In this document: positions 2,498 to 52,176 of the stretch, in pieces | Layout of the letters: each line of letters starts with the position of its first letter | Position numbering within the stretch: position 1 is the stretch's first letter | Source of the DNA: Arthrobacter oryzae | GTDB lineage: Bacteria > Actinomycetota > Actinomycetes > Actinomycetales > Micrococcaceae | Direction: 5' to 3' | DNA: 64,000 bases | NCBI RefSeq assembly: GCF_003634095.1 | Contig: NZ_RBIR01000008.1 | Coordinates: 62,001-126,000 of the forward strand | Translations under genes and position numbers: made by a program | The notes under the pieces: model-generated | The model's database searches: none | What the model was told of the DNA's origin: nothing | The model's input: only the letters and a program-made list of their open reading frames with translations

Positions 2498-3820
2498 TTA
2501 GTCCAGGTAGTCGCGCAGGACCTGTGAGCGCGACGGGTGGCGCAGCTTGGACATGGTCTTGGATTCGATCTGGCGGATGCGCTCGCGCGTCACACCGTAG
2601 ACCTTGCCGATTTCGTCTAAAGTCTTCGGCTGTCCGTCGGTGAGACCGAACCGCATCGCAACCACACCGGCTTCGCGCTCGGAGAGCGTGTCAAGCACCG
2701 AGTGCAGCTGTTCCTGCAGCAGGGTGAAGCTCACGGCGTCGGCGGGAACCACGGCCTCGGAGTCCTCGATGAGGTCACCGAACTCCGAGTCGCCGTCCTC
2801 GCCCAGGGGCGTGTGCAGGGAGATGGGCTCGCGGCCGTACTTCTGGACCTCGACGACCTTCTCGGGGGTCATGTCGAGTTCGAGGGCCAGTTCCTCGGGC
2901 GTGGGTTCGCGGCCCAGGTCCTGGAGCATCTGGCGCTGGACGCGGGCCAGCTTGTTGATGACTTCCACCATGTGCACCGGGATACGGATGGTGCGGGCCT
3001 GGTCAGCCATGGCGCGGGTGATCGCCTGGCGGATCCACCACGTGGCGTAGGTGGAGAACTTGAAGCCCTTCGTGTAGTCGAACTTCTCGACCGCGCGGAT
3101 CAGGCCCAGGTTGCCTTCCTGGATCAGGTCCAGGAAGAGCATGCCGCGGCCGGTGTAGCGCTTGGCCAGCGAGACGACCAGACGGAGGTTGGCCTCGAGC
3201 AGGTGGTTCTTGGCGCGCTTGCCGTCGTGGATGACGAATTCGAGCTCACGCTTGAGCTTGGGATCCATCGTGCCGTCATCGGCGGCGATCTTCTCCTCGG
3301 CGAAGAGGCCCGCTTCGATCCGCAGGGCCAGATCGACTTCCTGCTCAGCGTTCAGCAGGGCGACCTTGCCGATCTGCTTCAGGTAGTCCTTGACGGGGTC
3401 GGCTGTGGCGCCGGCGGACATGACCTGCTGCACGGGGGCGTCGTCGTCGTCGGCGTCGGAGTACACGAAACCGGAGCCGGTGGTCGCTGCGGCCTTGCCG
3501 GCAACCTCATCGCCTTCCGCTTCGTCACCGAGTTCGGCGGCATCGGGGGTGATGTCGTCGAGGTCTTCATCGACGTCGACGTCATCGTCACTGGCTGATT
3601 TGCCGGCGGCCTCTGCCGCGGCTTTAGCGCCGGGCTTGGGCCCGCGCTTCTTGGGCTCAGGCTTGGCGACTCCGTCGCCACCCTCTGCGGAAGCGGCGTC
3701 CTTGACAGCCTTATTGGCTGCACGCGTGGCGGCACGCTTGGCGTTTGTCGCCGCCTTCTTCTCCTCAGGGGACATTTCGGCCTGGTCGGCGGGTTCCTTC
3801 TTCGCGGAAGACGGGGTCAC
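2498..3820 (-). CDS. sigA: primary RNA polymerase sigma factor SigA (RpoD/HrdB type)
   Basis: This is the housekeeping sigma-70 factor that directs RNA polymerase to most promoters; 440 residues from the chosen start. The N-terminal third is a Lys/Ala-rich then acidic variable segment ([12 protein letters not shown]). Region 1.2 begins at [11 protein letters not shown], region 2 holds [20 protein letters not shown] and [13 protein letters not shown], and region 4 ends with the helix-turn-helix [11 protein letters not shown] chose GTG at 3820 because GAAAGG stands 6 nt before it; the in-frame ATG 12 codons upstream has no ribosome site. A TTGACA (3879-3884, minus strand) lies upstream, without a convincing -10. 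Confidence 0.96.
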
Positions 3821-21848: not shown

Positions 21849-22517
21849 ATGACTCTTGAGTTCAAACAGTTGGGTCTCGCCCCGGACTTCATCGACTACA
21901 CGCGCGGATGGGACCTCCAGCGCGAATTGCACGAGAAGGTCCTCGCCGGAACTGCGCCCAGCACCGTACTACTGCTCGAACACTCCGCCGTTTACACCGC
22001 CGGAAAGCGCACCGAAGACCACGAACGGCCCTTTGACGGAACCCCCGTCGTGGCCGTGGACCGCGGCGGCAAGCTCACGTGGCACGGCCCCGGCCAGCTG
22101 GTGGGCTACCCGATCATCAAGCTGAAGAATAAGGCCGGCATCCGCGACTACGTGGAGCGGCTGGAATCGGTGATCATTGCCGTGCTCGCGGACTACGGCA
22201 TCGAGGCCGTGCGCATCAAGGGCCGCGCGGGGGTCTGGATCGAACAGGACGCGAAGGGCCCGGACCGCAAGATCGCAGCCATCGGCATCCGCGTGCACGA
22301 GGGCGTCACCATGCACGGCTTCGCGATCAACTGCAACAACGATCTGGCCCCCTACGGCCAGATTATTGCCTGCGGCATCACCGACGCCGGAGTCACCACG
22401 ATCGCCCAGGAACTCGGCAGGGACGTCACCCCGGCGGACCTCGTGTCGCGGATCACCGAAGAACTGCGCAACAATGAAGAAGCCCTAGTTGCAACCCCAG
22501 AAGGAGCTCTACTGTGA
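21849..22517 (+). CDS. lipB: lipoyl(octanoyl) transferase
   Basis: LipB transfers octanoate from acyl carrier protein to lipoyl domains, the first step of lipoic acid synthesis; 222 residues. Conserved segments include [17 protein letters not shown], the catalytic Lys in [10 protein letters not shown] and the acyl-accepting Cys in [16 protein letters not shown] at 21849 starts the protein at MTLEFKQLG; there is no ribosome site, but TAAGCT stands 7 nt upstream. The stop overlaps the lipA start by 4 nt (GTGA), so the two are translationally coupled. The only lipoyl-domain protein in the window, SucB, is a likely client. Confidence 0.95.
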
Positions 22518-23521
22518 CACTGGCACCAGAAGGCCGGAAGATGCTGCGCATTGAGCAGCGAAACGCGGCCACACCGGTGGAACGTAAGCCGGAATGGATC
22601 AAGGCCAAGGTCCAGATGGGCCCCGAGTTCGTCCAGCTCAAGAATCTCGTCAAAAAGGAAGGCCTCCACACTGTGTGTGAAGAGGCCGGCTGCCCCAACA
22701 TCTTCGAGTGCTGGGAAGACAAGGAGGCCACCTTCCTGATCGGCGGCTCCGAATGCACCCGTCGCTGCGACTTCTGCCAGATCGACACCGGCAAGCCCTC
22801 GCCTGTGGACATGTTCGAGCCCACCAAGGTGGCACGTTCGGTGCAGGCCATGCAGCTCCGCTATGCCACCGTGACCGGCGTTGCCCGCGACGACCTCGCC
22901 GACGAGGGCGTCTGGCTCTATGCCGAAACGGTCCGCAAGATTCACGAACTGAACCCGGGCACCGGCGTCGAACTGCTTATTCCTGACTTCTCCGGCAAGC
23001 CCGATCACATTGCGGCCATCTGCGACTCCAAGCCCGAGGTCTTCGCCCACAACGTGGAAACCGTGCCCCGGATCTTCAAGCGCATCCGCCCGGCCTTCCG
23101 CTACGAGCGCTCCCTGGACGTCATCACCCAGGGCCGCAAGCTCGGCATGGTGACCAAGTCCAACCTGATCCTGGGCATGGGCGAAACCCGCGAGGAAATC
23201 TCGGAAGCACTGCGGGACCTGCACGAGGCCGGGTGCGACCTGATCACCATCACCCAGTACCTGCGCCCGTCCGAGCGCCACCTTCCGGTGGATCGCTGGG
23301 TCAAGCCGCAGGAGTTCGTTGACCTGCAGCAGGAAGCGGACGAGATCGGCTTCCTGGGCGTCATGAGCGGCCCCCTGGTGCGGTCTTCCTACCGCGCCGG
23401 CCGGCTCTGGGCCACCGCGATGCGCAAGAAGGGCTGGGAAATCCCGGCCGAGCTCGCCCACATCGAAAGCTCGGGAAGCACCCGCCAGGAAGCCAGCTCG
23501 CTGCTCGCGGCGCATTCCTGA
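22514..23521 (+). CDS. lipA: lipoyl synthase (radical SAM)
   Basis: LipA inserts two sulfur atoms into octanoyl groups to make lipoyl cofactor; 335 residues. The radical SAM cluster [10 protein letters not shown] and the auxiliary cluster Cys residues in [12 protein letters not shown] are present, as is the C-terminal VRSSYRAG with the conserved serines. The start is GTG at 22514, inside the end of lipB, with AGAAGGAG upstream. It is followed by a hairpin and then the DUF4191 gene. Confidence 0.97.
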
Positions 23522-23547
23522 TCCTGCCGCAACACCGTTCCTCCTAG

Positions 23548-23580
23548 GGGCCGGCACCGGATGATTCCGGCGTCCGGCCC
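23548..23580 (+). terminator. hairpin after lipA
   Basis: Outer arms GGGCCGG and CCGGCCC (23548-23554, 23574-23580) enclose a second pair CCGG/CCGG. It lies 27 nt after the lipA stop. It may only partly terminate, as the DUF4191 gene follows on the same strand. Confidence 0.5.
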
Positions 23581-23611
23581 GTAGCCGTCAATCACGTAGA
23601 ATTAAGGCACT

Positions 23612-24361
23612 ATGGCGAATTCCCCTGATTCCAGCACCTCCAGCCCGGCTTCCGATGCTCCGAAGCGCGGTCTTTTCTCCCGTAAGCCCAAGGAAGCAAA
23701 GGCCAAGAAGCCGAGCCGGCTGAAGCAGATCGGCGAGGTCTTCCAGATGACCCGCCGCCACGATCCCATGGTTCCGTGGCTCATGTTGCTGGCGTTCCTG
23801 GGTGTAGTCGCCGTCAGCCTCCTGGTTGGTTTCCTGCTGGATAACTGGGTCACCGGCCTGATCATCGGCATCGCCTTGGGCGCCATTGCCGCCACCTTGA
23901 TCCTGTCCCGCCGCGCCGAGCGCGCCGCGTTCGCGCAGATCGAGGGACAGCCGGGTGCCTCCGGCGCCGCCTTGGGCACGCTCAAGCGCGGCTGGATCAC
24001 CGAGGACCAGCCGGTCGCCGTCAACCCGCGCACGCAGGACGCTGTCTTCCGCGCCATCGGCCGGCCCGGCGTTGTGCTGGTCAGCGAGGGCCCCAGCAAC
24101 CGGGTCAAGCCGCTGGTCGACGCCGAACGCAAGCGGCTCGCGCGCATCCTGCCCAACGTCACCATCCACGTGATCGAGAGCGGCCGCGGTGAGGGCCAGG
24201 TGCCGCTCAGCCAGATCGCCAAGAAGATGAACAAGCTCAAGGGCGAACTGACCAAGACCGAGGTCAGCGCGGTATCCAAGCGCATTTCCTCGCTCGGCGG
24301 CCGCCTGCCGATCCCGAAGGGCATCGATCCCTACAAGGCCCGTCCGACCCGCGGGCGCTAA
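23612..24361 (+). CDS. DUF4191 domain-containing membrane protein
   Basis: This 249-residue protein is of the DUF4191 family, found next to lipA in many actinobacteria; its function is unknown. The N-terminus is Ser/Pro-rich and then basic (KPKEAKAKKPSRLKQI). Two hydrophobic helices follow, MVPWLMLLAFLGVVAVSLLV and NWVTGLIIGIALGAIAATLI, close together as a hairpin in the membrane. The rest is a soluble domain with the basic C-terminus YKARPTRGR. ATG at 23612 has TAGAAT 9 nt upstream and AAGG closer by. It ends before a strong hairpin. Confidence 0.88.
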   Translation: MANSPDSSTSSPASDAPKRGLFSRKPKEAKAKKPSRLKQIGEVFQMTRRHDPMVPWLMLLAFLGVVAVSLLVGFLLDNWVTGLIIGIALGAIAATLILSRRAERAAFAQIEGQPGASGAALGTLKRGWITEDQPVAVNPRTQDAVFRAIGRPGVVLVSEGPSNRVKPLVDAERKRLARILPNVTIHVIESGRGEGQVPLSQIAKKMNKLKGELTKTEVSAVSKRISSLGGRLPIPKGIDPYKARPTRGR

Positions 24362-24399
24362 CCTACCCGCAGCAGCGTTCGCCAGCAGGCCAGCAAGAC

Positions 24400-24449
24400 A
24401 GAACCGCCCCGGTTGACGGCCATCTCAGGCCGCCAGCCGGGGCTGTTCT
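24400..24449 (+). terminator. terminator of the lipB-lipA-DUF4191 block
   Basis: Outer arms 24400-24412 and 24437-24449 pair over 13 nt with one mismatch, with a further inner pairing, and TTGTTT follows. It begins 39 nt after the DUF4191 stop. Confidence 0.7.
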
Positions 24450-24545
24450 TGTTTATGTCCGACGTCGTCCGGCACCGGCGCGCTGGGCTGCGGCCGCCAG
24501 GACCCGGGCAGCGGGACAGCGAACGCACGACCTCTGGAGACACAC

Positions 24546-24908
24546 ATGAATTTCCCCTCGACCCCCATCATGATCCGCATTTTCCGGGGGCTGGCGATCG
24601 CCGAGGCGTTCAGTTGGGCCGCCTTGCTGCTCGGCATGGTGCTCAAATGGGTCACCCGGACGACGGAACTCGGCGTAGAGATTGCCGGTCCGATCCACGG
24701 CGCATTCTTCATCGGCTACGCGATCGCGGCGTTGAGTCTGTGGGCGAAGCTTCGCTGGCCGCTCCGGGTTGCCCTGCTCTCAGGGCTTTCGGCCGTCTTC
24801 CCGTTCGCGACCGTCTGGTTTGAACGCTGGGCCGGCCACCACGGATACCTTGCAGTGCCGGCCGGAGAGACTGCGCCGACGCCAGCCCGGGAAACGGCCG
24901 CGTTGTAG
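24546..24908 (+). CDS. DUF3817 domain-containing membrane protein
   Basis: This 120-residue protein has three hydrophobic helices (about 18-37, 47-66 and 71-90) and the features of DUF3817, such as FRGLAIAEAFSW near the start and GPIHGAFFIGYAIAA in the second helix. The function is unknown. ATG at 24546 has CTGGAGA at a good distance. The gene ends 23 bp before a long non-coding repeat array. Confidence 0.85.
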   Translation: MNFPSTPIMIRIFRGLAIAEAFSWAALLLGMVLKWVTRTTELGVEIAGPIHGAFFIGYAIAALSLWAKLRWPLRVALLSGLSAVFPFATVWFERWAGHHGYLAVPAGETAPTPARETAAL

Positions 24909-24930
24909 TCCCGCCCGGGACCTCGGGTTC

Positions 24931-25705
24931 CGTGCGCCCTGGCAACGTTGTGCCGCCATCGCCCATTTGACGCAGACGGCCGGTATGCGGGGAGGTTCAC
25001 CGGCCATTCGTGGCAAACGGACGCCCAACGTGGAGGTCTCGCGGCCACTCGTGACAAACGGACGCGGGTGAATCGAGCCCTGCCGTCGTCGTTGCGGCCA
25101 TTTGACGCAGGTGGCCGGTATGCGGGGACGTTTACCGGCCATTCGTGGCAAACCGCCGCCCAACGGGGATGTCTACCGGCCGTTGGTGGCGAACGGCCGA
25201 GGGACCATCGCGCCTGGCAACGTTGCTGCGCCCATTTGACGCAGACGGCCGGTATGCGGGGAGGTTTACCGGCCATTCGTGGCAAACGACCGCCCAACGT
25301 GGACGTTGACCGGCCATTCGTGGCAAACGGCCCAGGGTGAAGCGTGCCCTGGCAACGTTGATGCGCCCATTTGACGCACATGGCCGCTACGCGGGGAGGT
25401 TTACCGGCCAATCGTGGCAAACGACCGCCCAACGTGGACGTTGACCGGCCATTCGTGGCAAACGAGCGAAGGACCGCCGCGTCCTGGCATCATCTCTGTG
25501 GCCATTTGACGCAGGTGGCCGGTATGCGGGGAGGCTTACCGGCCATTCGTGGCAAACGGACGCCCAACGGGATGTCTACCGGCCGTTGGTGGCAAACAGC
25601 CGAGGGTGAATCGAGCCCTGCCGTCATCGTTGCGGCCATCTGACGCAGATGGCCGGTATGCGGGGAGGTTTACCGGCCGTTCGTGGCAAACCGCCACCCC
25701 ACGGG
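24931..25705. repeat. intergenic array of ~5.5 units, 134-135 bp each
   Basis: CAT(T/C)TGACGCA begins a unit at 24964, 25099, 25233, 25368, 25503 and 25637, so the period is 135, 134, 135, 135 and 134 bp; a partial tail precedes the first. Each full unit holds two copies of ACCGGCCATTCGTGGCAAAC or near-copies about 40 nt apart, 11 in all. Each has an 8-bp dyad GGCCGGTA/TACCGGCC around a 12-nt loop (perfect in most units), and units 3 and 4 also have CAACGT-GG-ACGTTG. The linker is of two main kinds (CCTGGCAACGTTG or GAATCGAGCCCTGCCGTC). The 134-bp units break any shared frame. The array fills the gap between two convergent genes. Confidence 0.93.
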
Positions 25706-25711
25706 GAGGGG

Positions 25712-26152
25712 CTACATCCGCAGGAGCACGGTATTCATGGCCCTGTCGTGAAGGCCGCGCTGGTCCGGGTCGAAGATAACGGCGGGGATGACGAGGCAGA
25801 GGAGCAAGGTCCGCACCAGGGCCGCGAGCGGGCCCGCGGGGCCGCCGCCCAGCCGGACCACGTGGATGCCCACGATCCGGTGGCCGATGCTGTAGCCCAG
25901 GGTGCCGATCAGCAGGATCTGCTCAATGGCAAACACGGCCAGCGTGGCCCACGAGTCGCCGGCGAAGGCGAAGTTGCTGATCACCAGCGCGATCGCCCAG
26001 TCGATGCAGATCGCCAGGAAGCGGCGACCGGCGCGTGCGATCGATCCGGGCCCGGCCGCCGGCAGCCCAAGCCGCTCCCCCGGGTACTTCGAGATGCCGG
26101 AAGTGTCCGGGCCGGTGAGCCATGAACCGATGTCTTTGCGATCTACCACCAT
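25712..26152 (-). CDS. RDD family membrane protein
   Basis: This 146-residue protein has an RDD domain: the motif ARAGRRFLAICIDWAIALVI opens helix 1, GTLGYSIGHRIVGIHVVRLG joins helices 2 and 3, and the end has DPDQRGLHDRAMNTVL. Three membrane helices are expected. RDD proteins are of varied, mostly unknown role, some linked to ion transport. The start may be ATG at 26152 or GTG at 26149; TAAGCT lies 3 or 6 nt upstream respectively, so the GTG fits a leaderless start better. It ends 7 bp from the repeat array, and glnA diverges. Confidence 0.85.
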   Translation of the reverse strand: MVVDRKDIGSWLTGPDTSGISKYPGERLGLPAAGPGSIARAGRRFLAICIDWAIALVISNFAFAGDSWATLAVFAIEQILLIGTLGYSIGHRIVGIHVVRLGGGPAGPLAALVRTLLLCLVIPAVIFDPDQRGLHDRAMNTVLLRM

Positions 26153-26176
26153 CCAAGCTTATCGGCTCAAGCCCGT

Positions 26177-26232
26177 CCACAGTGTGGGCAGCCTTGTGTC
26201 ACACTGTGGAACCAGATAGGTCACACTGTGGA
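26177..26232. promoter_or_regulatory. three copies of CACACTGTGG between RDD gene and glnA
   Basis: GTCACACTGTGGA occurs twice as a perfect 13-bp direct repeat (26198-26210 and 26220-26232), 22 bp apart, or about two helical turns. An inverted copy, CCACAGTGTG, is at 26177-26186. The block begins 25 bp from the RDD start and ends 34 bp before the GlnR-like box. It looks like a multi-site operator for an unknown regulator. Confidence 0.55.
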
Positions 26233-26265
26233 CCGGCGACTAGCGTTTACCTGTCAGGGCATTCT

Positions 26266-26303
26266 GTAACCTCCCCGAAACAATACGGACACTGGGGGGA
26301 AAT
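26266..26303 (+). promoter_or_regulatory. GlnR-like binding site upstream of glnA
   Basis: The sequence reads GTAAC-N6-GAAAC-N6-GACAC-N6-GAAAT. This has the exact a-b-a-b spacing of the GlnR box of actinobacteria (GTnAC-N6-GAAAC twice), with changes only in the weaker second pair. It lies 130 bp before the glnA start. GlnR control of glnA is well known in related genera; here it is inferred. Confidence 0.65.
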
Positions 26304-26432
26304 CCCGTGTCCTTAGGGTGGTAACAGTTGCTAGTGGCTCAGGAGCGGGGATGCTTTTTGCTTTCCCGCTGTTGGACTGCCCTGGACCAATGTGCCTGAC
26401 GGCCAGATTTTTCATATGCGTAAGGAGCATAG

Positions 26433-27857
26433 ATGTTCAAGACTGCGGACGAAGTCCTCAAGTTCATCAAGGACGAAGACATCAAATTCGTCGATATCCG
26501 CTTCACCGATCTTCCTGGCGTTCAGCAGCACTTCAACGTGCCCGCCAAGAGCGTTGACGCCGACTTCTTCGTCAATGGCCAGCTCTTCGACGGATCATCG
26601 ATCCGCGGCTTCCAGGGCATCGCCGAGTCTGACATGCAGCTCATCCCGGACGTGACCACGGCATTCATCGACACGTTCCGCATGGAGAAGACCCTCGCGC
26701 TGAACTTCTCGATCGTGAACCCCCGCACCGGCGATCCCTACCACCGCGATCCCCGCGGCGTAGCCGAAAAGGCCGAGGCCTACCTCGCCTCCACCGGCAT
26801 TGCCGACACCGCGTTCTTCGCCCCCGAGGCCGAGTTCTTCGTCTTCGACAACGTCCAGTACCAGTCCTCCCCGCAGGGCAGCTTCTACAAGATTGACTCC
26901 GAGGAAGCGCACTGGAACACCGGCCGTGAAGAAGAGGGCGGAAACCTCGGCTACAAGACCCCCGTCAAGGGTGGCTACTTCCCGGTTTCCCCCACCGACA
27001 AGCAGGCCGACCTGCGCGATGCCATGTGTGTCGCCCTGGACGAGGCCGGCCTTGAGGTCGAGCGCAGCCACCACGAAGTCGGTTCCGCCGGCCAGGCTGA
27101 AATCAACTACAAGTTCACCACCCTGACCCACGCGGCTGATGACCTGCAGAAGTTCAAGTACGTCATCAAGAACACCGCCGACGCCTGGGGCAAGTCGGTG
27201 ACCTTCATGCCGAAGCCGGTCTTCGGTGACAACGGCTCGGGCATGCACTGCCACCAGTCGCTGTGGACCGGCGGCGAGCCGCTGTTCTACGACGAGAAGG
27301 GCTACGCCGGCCTGTCCGACACCGCCCGCTGGTACATCGGCGGCCTGCTGAAGCACTCCTCCGCCGTCCTGGCCTTCACCAACCCGACGGTGAACTCCTA
27401 CCGCCGCCTGGTCAAGGGCTTCGAAGCTCCGGTCAACATGGTCTACTCGCAGGGCAACCGCTCCGCCGGTATCCGTATCCCGATCACGGGCTCCAACCCG
27501 AAGGCCAAGCGCATCGAGTTCCGCGCTCCGGACCCCTCCTCGAACCCGTACCTGGCGTTCGCTGCCCAGCTGATGGCCGGCATCGACGGCATCCGCAACC
27601 GGATCGAACCCCCGGCTCCGATCGACAAGGACCTCTACGAGCTCCCCGCCGAAGAAGCCAAGGACATCCCCAAGGCTCCGGGCACCCTCGAGGAGGCCCT
27701 GGATGCACTGGCCGAGGACAACGAGTTCCTGCAGGCCGGCGGCGTCTTCACCCAGGACCTGATCGACACCTGGATCGAGTACAAGTACGAGAACGAGATC
27801 CGTCCGCTGTCGCTGCGCCCGAACCCCTTCGAGTTCGAGCTCTACTACGGCGTCTAG
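26433..27857 (+). CDS. glnA: glutamine synthetase type I
   Basis: This is the main ammonium-assimilating enzyme, making glutamine from glutamate, ammonia and ATP; 474 residues, acting as a dodecamer. The conserved N-terminal [10 protein letters not shown]-like segment reads [15 protein letters not shown], the ATP-binding site is [18 protein letters not shown], and glutamate-binding segments [10 protein letters not shown] and [14 protein letters not shown] are present. Tyr402 in [10 protein letters not shown] is the expected adenylylation site for GlnE, which is encoded 1.5 kb downstream. ATG at 26433 has AAGGAG 5 nt upstream. The 280-bp upstream gap holds the GlnR-like box, so transcription probably answers to nitrogen. 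Confidence 0.97.
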
Positions 27858-27918
27858 TCTGACCAAGCGGCTAGGCACGGTTTAGCCCGCCGGAACTCCG
27901 CCAGGATTCCGAAACAGG

Positions 27919-27954
27919 AAGGCCGGCCACGGATATCAATCCGCGGCCGGCCTT
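27919..27954 (+). terminator. glnA terminator
   Basis: Arms 27919-27933 and 27940-27954 pair over 15 nt with one mismatch around a 6-nt loop, and the right arm runs into TTTTT. It lies 62 nt after the glnA stop. Confidence 0.9.
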
Positions 27955-28006
27955 TTTGTGTCTCCTCCCAGGCGCCGAGCGCCCCGGCGGCCGGGCCCAA
28001 GCGGCC

Positions 28007-28207
28007 TCAACGCTTTCCGTACTTCTTGTGCACCGCCTGCTTGCTGACGCCGAGGCACACCGCGATCGCCTCCCAGGAGAGTCCGGCCTGCCTGGCGCGG
28101 AGCACGACCTCGGTCTCCGTGCGAGCCAGTTCCTTATGAAGCTCCGCCACGGAGTAGAGGGCCTCGGCCGGGCCCTTGCCGTCCATCGAACCAATCAGTG
28201 TTTTCAT
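28007..28207 (-). CDS. small helix-turn-helix protein
   Basis: This 66-residue protein has a C-terminal helix-turn-helix, LSWEAIAVCLGVSKQAVHKK, like that of sigma region 4 or small regulators, with an N-terminal helical stretch (VAELHKELARTETEVVLRAR). It is small enough to act as a dimeric DNA-binding protein. I do not know its family name. ATG at 28207 has GGGAGG 7 nt upstream. Two palindromes centred about 24 and 53 bp upstream of the start suggest that it controls its own promoter. Confidence 0.75.
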   Translation of the reverse strand: MKTLIGSMDGKGPAEALYSVAELHKELARTETEVVLRARQAGLSWEAIAVCLGVSKQAVHKKYGKR

Positions 28208-28222
28208 TCCGCACCTCCCGGC

Positions 28223-28270
28223 GTCAACCTTAGTTGACCTCTGGGGCCGGCGTCAACGAAAATTGACGCC
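28223..28270 (-). promoter_or_regulatory. two TTGAC palindromes, putative autoregulatory operator
   Basis: The first is GTCAAC-CTTA-GTTGAC (28223-28238). The second has 8-bp arms, GGCGTCAA-N6-TTGACGCC (28249-28270). Their centres are 29 bp apart, and both contain GTCAA/TTGAC half-sites. They lie directly before the small HTH gene, so that protein is the obvious candidate ligand. TTGACG may also act as a -35 element. Confidence 0.6.
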
Positions 28271-28339
28271 CGGACCGTCTGCGCCGTTGCCCGGCCCCAT
28301 CGCCCGGCCCCGCCCTGACACTCCCCGGAACGCCCGGGA

Positions 28340-28855
28340 TCAGAACGCCCGGTACATGATGCGCTGCGGGCCGGCGTCGCCGCCTTCGTAACGGCCGCGG
28401 TCCTCGAATCCTGCCTTGCGGTAGGCGGCCAGAGCGCCGGGGTTAAGTTCGTTGACGGAGAGTACGACGCCGGCCTGGCCGCTGCCCAGCCCGGCCGTCA
28501 GTTTCGCGGCCTCCCGCACTGCGGCGTCCGCGGCGAGGGTGCCAAGGCCCTTGCCCTGCCGCCGCCGGTCGATCAGGAACCCCCGCAGCAGCCAGGCCGA
28601 GTCGTCGTCGGGCCAGCCCGCCAGGGTGGCCGCCCCGGTCTGGAGCGTCAGGACCCCCGCCGCGGTGCCGTCGGAGTCGACGGCGAACGGGTGCCGGGAG
28701 TCTTCCTCAAGCGCGATCAGTATCATCCGCAGCGGTTCGCCGACGAATTTCTGCTGCCCCTCGCCGAGCTCCAGGAGGGCGATCTCACCCAGCTTGATGG
28801 CGCGGGCGTCGTCGTCGAGGTTCTTCAGGGGCAGCAGCCACACATGTCCGGACAT
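28340..28855 (-). CDS. GNAT family N-acetyltransferase
   Basis: This 171-residue protein has the GNAT fold. Motif A, with the acetyl-CoA pyrophosphate loop, is RRRQGKGLGTLAADAAV at about residue 100, after the strand AWLLRGFLID. The C-terminal NELNPGALAAYRKAGFEDRG is motif B, typical of the superfamily. The acceptor is unknown. ATG at 28855 has no ribosome site but TACGCT stands 6 nt upstream. It precedes the HTH gene on the same strand, 132 bp apart. Confidence 0.88.
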   Translation of the reverse strand: MSGHVWLLPLKNLDDDARAIKLGEIALLELGEGQQKFVGEPLRMILIALEEDSRHPFAVDSDGTAAGVLTLQTGAATLAGWPDDDSAWLLRGFLIDRRRQGKGLGTLAADAAVREAAKLTAGLGSGQAGVVLSVNELNPGALAAYRKAGFEDRGRYEGGDAGPQRIMYRAF

Positions 28856-28905
28856 GTAGACAGCGTACCCGCGCCGGCGGCGGCGGCCGCCGTGAGGAAC
28901 CGGGG

Positions 28906-29322
28906 TTAGAGCGCAGCGTCCTTGGGCGGCCCGGCCGGATCCATCCAGAAGACCTCCCAGAGGTGGCCGTCCGGGTCCTGGAAGCTGTGGGTGTACATGA
29001 AGCCGTAGTCCTGGGCCTCCTCCGAGGCCGTGCCCCCGGAGGTCAGGGCGGTGCGGATGACCTCGTCCACGGCCTCGCGGCTCTCCAGCGAGAAGGACAT
29101 GATGGCCTCGGCGGTGTCCGCCGTCGCGGCGATCGACTTCGAGGTGAAGGTCTTGAAGTAGGACTCGACGAGCAGCATCACGTACGCACCGTCATTGACG
29201 ATCATGCAGGTGGCGTTCTCGTCGGTGAAGTCGGGGTTGAAGGAGAATCCCAGCGCCGTGAAGAACTCCACGGTCGTATCGAGATTCCGGACGGGGAGGT
29301 TAACAAACAGTTGTCTGGCCAT
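28906..29322 (-). CDS. VOC family protein (glyoxalase/bleomycin resistance fold)
   Basis: This 138-residue protein has the vicinal-oxygen-chelate fold: MARQLFVNLPVRNLDTTVEFF opens the first module and SFQDPDGHLWEVFWMDP closes the second, as in the family's YhaH/PhnB-like members. Glu137-type metal ligands appear to be present, but the substrate is unknown. ATG at 29322 has TACCTT 6 nt upstream and no ribosome site. It follows glnE's end region: glnE stops 41 bp upstream, so the two may be cotranscribed in part. Confidence 0.85.
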   Translation of the reverse strand: MARQLFVNLPVRNLDTTVEFFTALGFSFNPDFTDENATCMIVNDGAYVMLLVESYFKTFTSKSIAATADTAEAIMSFSLESREAVDEVIRTALTSGGTASEEAQDYGFMYTHSFQDPDGHLWEVFWMDPAGPPKDAAL

Positions 29323-38659: not shown

Positions 38660-38766
38660 GTCCGGGTTGTGTTTTCGGGTTGTGTTTTCGGGTTGTGTTT
38701 TCGAGACTGTGTATTCGGGGCTGTGTGTTCCCAGGCTGTGTTTTCCCAGACTGTGTTTTCCAGGCT
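38660..38766. repeat. seven degenerate ~14-bp repeats upstream of map
   Basis: The motif (T/C)TGTGTTTTC, with GGGT, GAGA, CCAG or similar in between, recurs seven times at 13-15-bp steps: the first three are near-identical, the later four diverge. It ends 27 bp before the map start and lies between the 54-aa gene and map. It may be a slippage tract; the T-rich strand could curve DNA near the map promoter. Confidence 0.85.
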
Positions 38767-38781
38767 GCGCCCGGCAGCTTA

Positions 38782-51198: not shown

Positions 51199-51507
51199 TC
51201 ATGCGGCGATCGACTGGGAGTACACCAGGCCCTTGACGAACCACATCGCAACGCTCACGGCCACAAACAGCAGCAGGAATCCGACGTCGAGCGACATCCC
51301 GCCCAGCCGCAGCGGCGGGATGAGCCGGCGGAGCAACTTCAGGGGCTTGTCCGTGACCGAATACACAGCATGCGCGGCCACGAGGGCCATTCCGCGCGGC
51401 CGCCAACTCCGGGCAAACATCTGCACCCAGTCGAAGACCAGGCGGATGATCAGTGCCACGAAAAAAAGCAACAGAGCGATATAGACGAGCCCAAATACAA
51501 TTCCCAT
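51199..51507 (-). CDS. YggT family membrane protein
   Basis: This 102-residue protein has two hydrophobic helices, at LVYIALLLFFVALIIRLVFD and at GFLLLFVAVSVAMWFVKGLV, separated by the polar loop TDKPLKLLRRLIPPLRLGG, the YggT signature. It sits between sepF and wag31 as in most actinobacteria, which suggests a role in division or envelope growth. The start is ATG at 51507 without a ribosome site; TATGAG lies 7 nt upstream. A long perfect hairpin separates it from sepF. Confidence 0.92.
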   Translation of the reverse strand: MGIVFGLVYIALLLFFVALIIRLVFDWVQMFARSWRPRGMALVAAHAVYSVTDKPLKLLRRLIPPLRLGGMSLDVGFLLLFVAVSVAMWFVKGLVYSQSIAA

Positions 51508-51585
51508 GAGCTAACTCATATCTCCATGTTCATTCCGGATACCGCGGTGTCCTAAGGAAAGTCCTGCTTCTATTTCAACACGGAT

Positions 51586-51638
51586 AATTCCGCACGGATG
51601 CCAGGCAGGTCTCCCCCGCCTGGCATCCGTGCGGAATT
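51586..51638 (-). terminator. 21-bp perfect hairpin between sepF and yggT
   Basis: Arms 51586-51606 and 51618-51638 are perfectly complementary over 21 bp around an 11-nt loop. It begins 8 nt after the sepF stop, so it should end the sepF transcript. No T-run follows. Confidence 0.88.
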
Positions 51639-51645
51639 TACGGCT

Positions 51646-52176
51646 CTAGCTTTGGTTGAAGAAAGTCGCCTGGGTCTCGCTGGTCTTCTTGTCATCGCCA
51701 ATGACCTCGATGTACGACGGCGAGAGCAGGAAGACCTTGTTCGTCACCCGTTCGATGCTGCCGCGAAGGCCGAAGACAAGGCCGGCGGAGAAGTCCACGA
51801 GGCGCTTGGCGTCAGCTTCGCCCATGTCGGTGACGTTCATGATCACGGGGATGCCGTCGCGGAAGCTTTCGCCAATGAGCTTGGCGTCGTTGTACGACCG
51901 CGGATGGATAGTGGTGATCTGCCGGAGTCCGGTGGTCTCTTCGCGGCTCGATGCCGCGCGCTTTATAGGTGTCACAGGTGCGCGATATTCCTCTTCGGCG
52001 GCGTAAGGCTCTTCCCTGGGGACCTCGCGGACGGGCGCCGGGGCACGTCGTTCCTCGCGGTCCTGCTCCATGGATTCGTCCTCATCCTTGTGCGGTGTGG
52101 GGTGCTCAGACTCGTAATGTTCGTCGCCGTCGGCGAGCCCAAGATAGATCATTGTCTTGCGCAGAGCGCCAGCCAT
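51646..52176 (-). CDS. sepF: cell division protein SepF
   Basis: SepF links FtsZ to the membrane and shapes the Z-ring; 176 residues. The N-terminus [20 protein letters not shown] is the amphipathic membrane anchor, an acidic and Arg/Pro-rich linker follows (about 20-75), and the C-terminal core has [19 protein letters not shown] and [20 protein letters not shown], the FtsZ-binding domain. ATG at 52176 has AGGAG 7 nt upstream. The gene lies 87 bp after yggS, as in other Gram-positive dcw clusters. Confidence 0.96.

Follow-up and report, generated by a model that had tools for sequence, protein, structure and literature searches.

Repeated protein sites at whole-turn spacing make up helix-phased operator, iteron or centromere arrays, for example F-plasmid sopC, and roadblock terminators such as the TTF-I Sal boxes; directly repeated conserved arms at whole-turn distances usually signal protein sites that share one DNA face. 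Arrays of TTF-I sites are located downstream of genes, where they halt polymerase. Intrinsic (Rho-independent) terminators are hairpins directly behind stop codons.

Two further kinds of dispersed palindrome have to be compared. In the extract of PMC3733652 used here, the definition of REPs includes a conserved unpaired GTAG or CGTC end tag, a Y1/RAYT transposase goes with the GTAG group, and none was found for the CGTC group. A table in PMC12306157 gives two figures for predicted REPs in Arthrobacter livingstonensis, 5,512 and 705, one per column; these may or may not include the family described here. Paired DNA-uptake-sequence terminators of Neisseria and Pasteurellaceae are, in an extract of PMC1852404, inverted pairs behind genes, mostly convergent ones.

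The array analysed here fills a gap between two converging genes in the window, which is the whole 64,000-nucleotide stretch of Arthrobacter oryzae DNA that was analysed. Its repeated 64-bp element represents an apparently unnamed family that is found just downstream of genes in Arthrobacter-related soil bacteria; in PMC literature, which does not take in subscription journals, neither a description of the family nor a paper with its 16-mer was found. Like REPs and BIMEs of the GTAG and CGTC superfamilies, the elements are short intergenic palindromes, sometimes clustered, with a preference for convergent gaps and 3′ ends. Unlike them, they are few, carry no GTAG or CGTC tag, go with no Y1 transposase, and have longer arms, a constant arm offset and extra solo arms in helix steps. 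With paired uptake-sequence terminators, as the extract describes them, they share genus-specific inverted pairs behind genes, and the sister palindromes described below resemble these down to their T/A tails; the window family, however, has no T-tails and occurs in tens of copies per genome, against at least 1000. As in intrinsic terminators, a hairpin stands directly behind stop codons, but the arm sequence is common to unrelated genes and there is no U-tract. As in sopC- or TTF-I-type arrays, several copies of one putative site lie at whole-turn spacing, whereas the present putative sites are dispersed over the chromosome between ordinary genes. For high-GC Actinobacteria, little is known of how convergent transcription is separated in the absence of U-tailed terminators. 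Fixed geometry, lineage-specific arms and arms added in helical steps together offer a concrete handle, and the arm could be used as protein bait.

A 64-bp inverted repeat is the building block of the array

The tandem array was placed by TRF at 24963–25707, with a period of 135 bp, 5.5 copies and 82% matches, in agreement with the roughly 5.5 units of the original prediction. The element starts (24960, 25095, 25229, 25364, 25499 and 25633) give steps of 135, 134, 135, 135 and 134 bp, exactly the periods that had been claimed. The array is real. The start given for it, 24931, precedes element 1 by about 30 bp. The array is built from a 64-bp inverted repeat with 26-bp arms and a 12-nt loop rather than from the 135-bp unit, and six of these elements and five solo arms fill 24960–25705 as five full units and a sixth element (no strand assigned to the whole). 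A full unit runs in the order 64-bp element, spacer, solo right arm, linker. All parts are given on the plus strand. Element 1 (24960–25023; left arm, loop, right arm) is followed by solo right arm 1 (25039–25064), the most diverged; element 2 (25095–25158), the top covariance-model match of its own genome at 79.5 bits, by solo right arm 2 (25174–25199); element 3 (25229–25292) by arm 3 (25308–25333); element 4 (25364–25427) by arm 4 (25443–25468); and element 5 (25499–25562) by arm 5 (25577–25602). Element 6 (25633–25696) has no solo arm after it.

In units 1–5 the solo right arm lies 41, 41, 41, 41 and 40 bp after the right arm of the element; this is the second near-copy of a 20-mer that had been noticed about 40 nt on. 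The GGCCGGTA/TACCGGCC dyad is also present as described, but the description was incomplete: the dyad is the top of the longer 64-bp inverted repeat. The left arm of this repeat, TTTGACGCAGRTGGCCGGTA, is the 20-mer in inverted and diverged form and had been missed. Overall identity among units 1–5 is 77–87%, with 84–95% in the element parts versus 56–93% in the linkers, which matches the earlier picture of diverged units with a conserved core. The linkers of units 1 and 5 are 93% identical, and this fits the proposal of two linker types shuffled between units. Chance is excluded for the array, since the element profile found 0 matches in 377,878 shuffled bases.

The neighbours are a DUF3817 gene on the left (24546–24908, plus strand; Pfam PF12823, E 1.2e-23) and an RDD gene on the right (25712–26152, minus strand; Pfam PF06271, E 4.9e-10). 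Both were correctly named beforehand, and they converge with 803 bp between them. A repeat protein, already held to be unlikely, was rejected on the 134/135-bp periods, which break the frame, and on the overlapping open reading frames on both strands. A known structured RNA was rejected on the lack of an Rfam 15 match at gathering score: positions 22000–29000 of the window gave two weak matches, both below it, and seven loci bearing elements or sister palindromes gave none. A mobile plasmid or phage element was likewise rejected, as blastn of 24920–25720 against plasmids and phages returned no match; the exact 18-mer occurred in 0 viral contigs.

Distribution of the element and its placement relative to genes

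A covariance model (R1) built from an alignment of 57 elements (A1) gave 48 strand-counted matches in the own genome, equal to 24 places at about nine loci; one place, C7:144085, is weak and is missed by the element profile. In the same genome the 16-mer core matched 21 times with up to two mismatches. R1 matches were found in 25 of the 61 genus genomes, with at most 55 strand-counted matches in any one of them, and the exact 20-mer in 18 stretches from eight named Arthrobacter and Pseudarthrobacter strains. Outside the genus, R1 gave weak matches only, in 19 genomes of other genera among 197. The array that was originally called unrecognised is therefore real but no isolated novelty, and the possibility, raised at the same time, that the unit occurs only here and is absent from relatives does not hold for the 64-bp element. 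The exact 135-bp arrangement was seen only in this window among the arm-mapped loci; in the nearest relative (G019) these parts are spaced differently. At loci L170, L173, L177, L178, L181 and L191, all in draft genomes, the contig stops at or close to the elements; arrays may break draft assemblies, with possible under-counting.

In a 30-genome tree (RDD plus glnA), matches were present in 15 of 15 genomes of one clade, 11 of which had at least 13 strand-counted matches, and in 1 of 15 genomes outside it (two matches). Occurrence thus follows the tree, which points to inheritance in one lineage rather than frequent transfer. With both neighbours recognised, the DUF3817/RDD gap bears elements in ten loci from ten genomes, numbering six here and in Bi26, four in G014, three in EPSL27 and one or two elsewhere. 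Where the DUF3817/RDD pair was complete in relatives' loci (14 of 30), the arm core, with up to three mismatches, was present in seven and absent from seven. Nine genomes share another convergent gap, next to a cytochrome c assembly gene. The occupation of orthologous gaps with varying copy number indicates that the DUF3817/RDD site is old in the clade and that its array length is variable. The natural variation from one to six elements at a single orthologous gap would also serve as a dose series for transcription blocking.

Placement was surveyed at 105 loci carrying 202 elements in 116 clusters, with gene calls from a codon-score finder trained on the same loci, which is right for the window genes and rough in other genera, where orientation counts were given no weight. 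Sixty-one clusters were convergent, 34 co-directional and 11 divergent, two lay within predicted genes and eight at a locus edge. Element-free gaps of at least 70 bp from the same loci served as background (47 convergent, 181 co-directional, 98 divergent; n = 326). With the eight edge and two inside clusters left out, the convergent share was 61 of 106 among clusters and 47 of 326 in the background (odds ratio 8, p 2e-17), so that the location relative to convergent genes, which was to be mapped, shows a preference for convergent gaps. One OVS8 site was counted twice (L073, L205), and single counting gives 60 convergent clusters and p 6e-17. Per orthologous group, set by hand from flank comparisons, the counts were 18 convergent, 15 co-directional and eight divergent (18 of 41, p 3e-5). 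Clusters with at least three elements were convergent in 16 of 19 cases. In convergent gaps the median distance from element to nearer stop was 34 bp, and 29 of the 34 co-directional clusters were nearer the 3′ end of the upstream gene. The strand of the element relative to co-directional genes (about 22 against 11, counted by eye) gave no significant difference.

Arms are added in steps of about 10 bp

The positions of the arms were taken from a single-arm profile, which at the same loci gave 1 match in 660,237 bases away from elements. Of 189 outward adjacent arm pairs, 188 were spaced at 37 or 38 bp and one at 48 bp. Among same-direction neighbours within 200 bp (n = 60), 53 fell at 31–33 bp (8), 40–42 bp (36) or 49–53 bp (9), and the seven others at 17, 100, 111, 114, 123, 124 and 157 bp. 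The linkers between same-direction arms are non-homologous between loci (median identity 0.33–0.40), and the solo arms, unable to fold alone, keep the arm sequence. Such extra arms were seen in the window family alone among the families looked at.

When each cluster of a locus contributed a single value (n = 33), the Rayleigh R at 10.5 bp was 0.88, a value reached by 0 of 4000 random sets; per orthologous group (n = 19, grouping again by hand) it was 0.85 (0/4000). Counting against helix phasing are the best-fit period, which is 10.1 bp over loci and 9.9 bp over groups, not exactly 10.5 bp, and the fact that the main spacing test is carried by three classes alone. Facing arms (> <) tend to lie 45–46, 56, 66, 77, 88 or 108 bp apart, with R 0.415 at 10.5 bp (n = 40; 5/4000). 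Their rhythm is weaker per group, at 18/4000 for 10.5 bp and 263/4000 with a free period, which is not clear. A held-out set of 20 further loci, cleared of duplicates of earlier ones and run with unchanged profile and threshold, was only partly independent, since strains OVS8 and U41 were also in the training set. In this set, 9 of 10 same-direction pairs at 20–60 bp fell into the predicted classes (p 5e-5; the miss was at 60 bp), and five facing pairs had a phase of 3.47 bp versus 3.5 predicted. The whole-turn site spacing of phased arrays is thus found in this family.

Hairpins, sister palindromes and the reading of the array

Taken singly, the window elements fold well (z −1.4 to −4.8, four strand tests). 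The tails of the window family have no T-tail, with a T fraction of 0.129 (n = 290) versus 0.161 in intergenic DNA, and the number of terminator-like sites at 24300–26300 was 0. Paired cells made up 78.2% versus 78.1% in shuffles, so there is no excess covariation, and covariation lends no support to selection on the hairpin of this family. Mismatches are conserved, A.C mispairs are as common as G.U (146 vs 106), and one pair (24–41) has nine compensated rows. The window family thus has neither the U-tract of an intrinsic terminator nor a stem kept by compensatory changes. Of the bidirectional terminators originally proposed, the ordinary U-tailed kind is therefore unsupported here.

The weak R1 matches outside the genus led to palindromes with other arms and nearly the same geometry. 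In three other genera, arms like GAGTTGCCACTTATGGC form inverted pairs, with an offset of 38 in 16 clusters and of 37 in one; in this survey 17 clusters were paired and five unpaired. A model (R2) made from these palindromes matched in 54 of 197 family genomes and 18 of 32 genera; its matches are structure-led, taken from the best 26 candidates per genome, and show spread, not counts. Twenty places chosen by R2 held near-perfect palindromes with arms differing by genus, which, as R2 itself picked the places, are not independent evidence; in alignment A2, two rows (L206, L211) were originally detected with the structure model. Loci L270–L289, from other Micrococcaceae genera, bear genus-specific near-perfect palindromes of 61–65 bp, several of them extended outward by locus-specific complementary bases, as if palindromy itself were kept.

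In the own genome, a sister arm, GCGGGGTCACTTATGGCC, gave 34 forward and 34 reverse matches (controls 0 and 1), suggesting about 34 sister palindromes, and it was matched in 40 of the 61 genus genomes. Pairs were obtained at 26 of 33 loci, with offset 37 in 24 of the 26. By eye, this arm is in register with the window arm, and the two share the core G-CAC--ATGGCC. Own-genus sister sites (27 classified) were convergent in 13 cases, co-directional in 13 and divergent in one, with a median of 8 bp to the nearest 3′ end (n = 26). Sister families are near-perfect stems of 25–30 bp that fold at −44 to −62 kcal/mol; they are 93.9% paired versus 80.9% in shuffles, with 18 of 25 pairs compensated, and stems with compensatory changes were found in the sister families of other genera. 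Tails had 35% T in the own genus (26 tails, convergent side) and 18% T in other genera (38 tails), the latter amounting to no T-tail. Strong pairing and T-rich tails make a bidirectional terminator the natural reading of the own-genus sisters, which look like such terminators. The window itself holds a degenerate sister palindrome at 2403–2466 (no strand assigned), with arms like CAACGCGGGGTCACTTATGGCC (AAAGCGGGGCCGTC...GATGACCCCGCTTT); its two 18-mer arms together have 11 mismatches, and it lies 31 bp past the 3′ end of a sigma-70 gene (2498–3820, minus strand). A 16-mer of the sister arm also occurred in 22 viral stretches; these had no inverted partner and were set aside as apparently chance coding matches.

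The sister hairpins bear on a reading at the RNA level, in which a transcribed hairpin would end or protect both converging mRNAs as a bidirectional terminator or 3′ stabiliser, and arrays would repeat it. Near-perfect hairpins that abut stop codons, some with T-tails, point to an RNA role at least ancestrally, and the good folding of single window elements, their position directly behind stop codons, the compensated sister stems, the T-rich tails within the own genus and the occurrence of the family downstream of genes in several genera all agree with it. For the window family the reading is nevertheless doubtful: it would have to accommodate conserved mismatches without excess covariation, the lack of a T-tail or terminator-like site, solo arms that cannot fold alone, and a helix-step spacing that is unexpected for RNA. 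A selfish REP/BIME-like repeat, that is, a palindrome copied around the genome that survives harmlessly between 3′ ends and whose arrays arise by slippage and are homogenised by conversion, is consistent with multi-copy, intergenic palindromes of patchy copy number and with units that are more alike within arrays than between loci. The intergenic, convergent or 3′ placement is also that of REPs, which according to the PMC3733652 extract are mostly found between convergent or co-directional genes near 3′ ends. Against this, the 57-sequence alignment A1 lacks a GTAG end, and CGTC, although it opens a few rows, is not a consistent end either; the 26-bp arms compare with REP stems of 5–13 bp in the source extract, and the 24 own-genome places are tens of copies, not the hundreds usual for REPs (>100 per genome). 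Many species have elements in the same gaps (the two most widely shared gaps in 10 and 9 genomes), occurrence along the tree argues for inheritance rather than jumping, and spacing steps of 10 bp are not predicted. The Y1/RAYT domain PF01797 was found in 1 of 61 genus genomes and 0 times in the own genome, with 5 of 14 control genomes positive, and a RAYT-driven REP was rejected as current mover; on balance we regard a selfish repeat as improbable. The one positive genome (G032; L124, L125) contains the sole Y1/HUH transposase matches among the 61, two in number, one of them in a 388-aa frame. A paired uptake-sequence terminator does not fit on copy number, with 21 16-mer matches in the own genome versus the roughly 1000 or more expected of one.

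Whole-turn spacing, the convergent setting and the missing U-tract make a protein-bound roadblock or insulator the best explanation. Taken jointly, that the window array is a local, clade-specific expansion of a 3′-end palindrome, and that it offers helix-phased binding sites for a putative protein as a roadblock or insulator at convergent gene ends, has in our estimate a probability of roughly 45%. Each 26-bp arm would be a putative site of a sequence-specific DNA-binding protein, and the basic element would present two such sites as inverted arms 37–38 bp apart, with further same-direction arms added at 3, 4 or 5 helical turns. Bound proteins would then be aligned on one face of the helix, making cooperative binding possible. 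Between converging genes the bound array could be a roadblock: a bidirectional terminator or insulator made of protein, which would keep the polymerases from colliding and separate supercoils. It may have evolved from a hairpin-type 3′ element. The 11 of 106 clusters in divergent gaps count against the roadblock, as does the fact that other genera and half of the genus tree are without the window arm sequence. A wider proposal is speculative: Micrococcaceae would carry lineage-specific 63–65-bp palindromes behind genes, read by a co-evolving putative DNA-binding protein, and in one Arthrobacter clade hairpin terminators would have turned into helix-phased roadblock or insulator arrays, a bacterial counterpart of the eukaryotic Sal-box/TTF-I terminator arrays. 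Among the functions first suggested for the array, a binding array, bidirectional terminators and a chromosome-organising element are still open.

Three other features of the window were observed. A hairpin at 24400–24449 lies behind the gene upstream of DUF3817 and is possibly merely a strong terminator; on the minus strand it matches the mycobacterial F6 sRNA family below gathering (33.9 bits, gathering 46). Separate tandem repeats of 13–14 bp and 29 bp, of the CGGGTTGTGTTTTCCAGAC type, occupy 38663–38767. A long palindrome with 26-bp arms (3 mismatches, loop 11), unrelated in arm sequence, is found at 51581–51643, between predicted genes that end at 51507 and begin at 51646.
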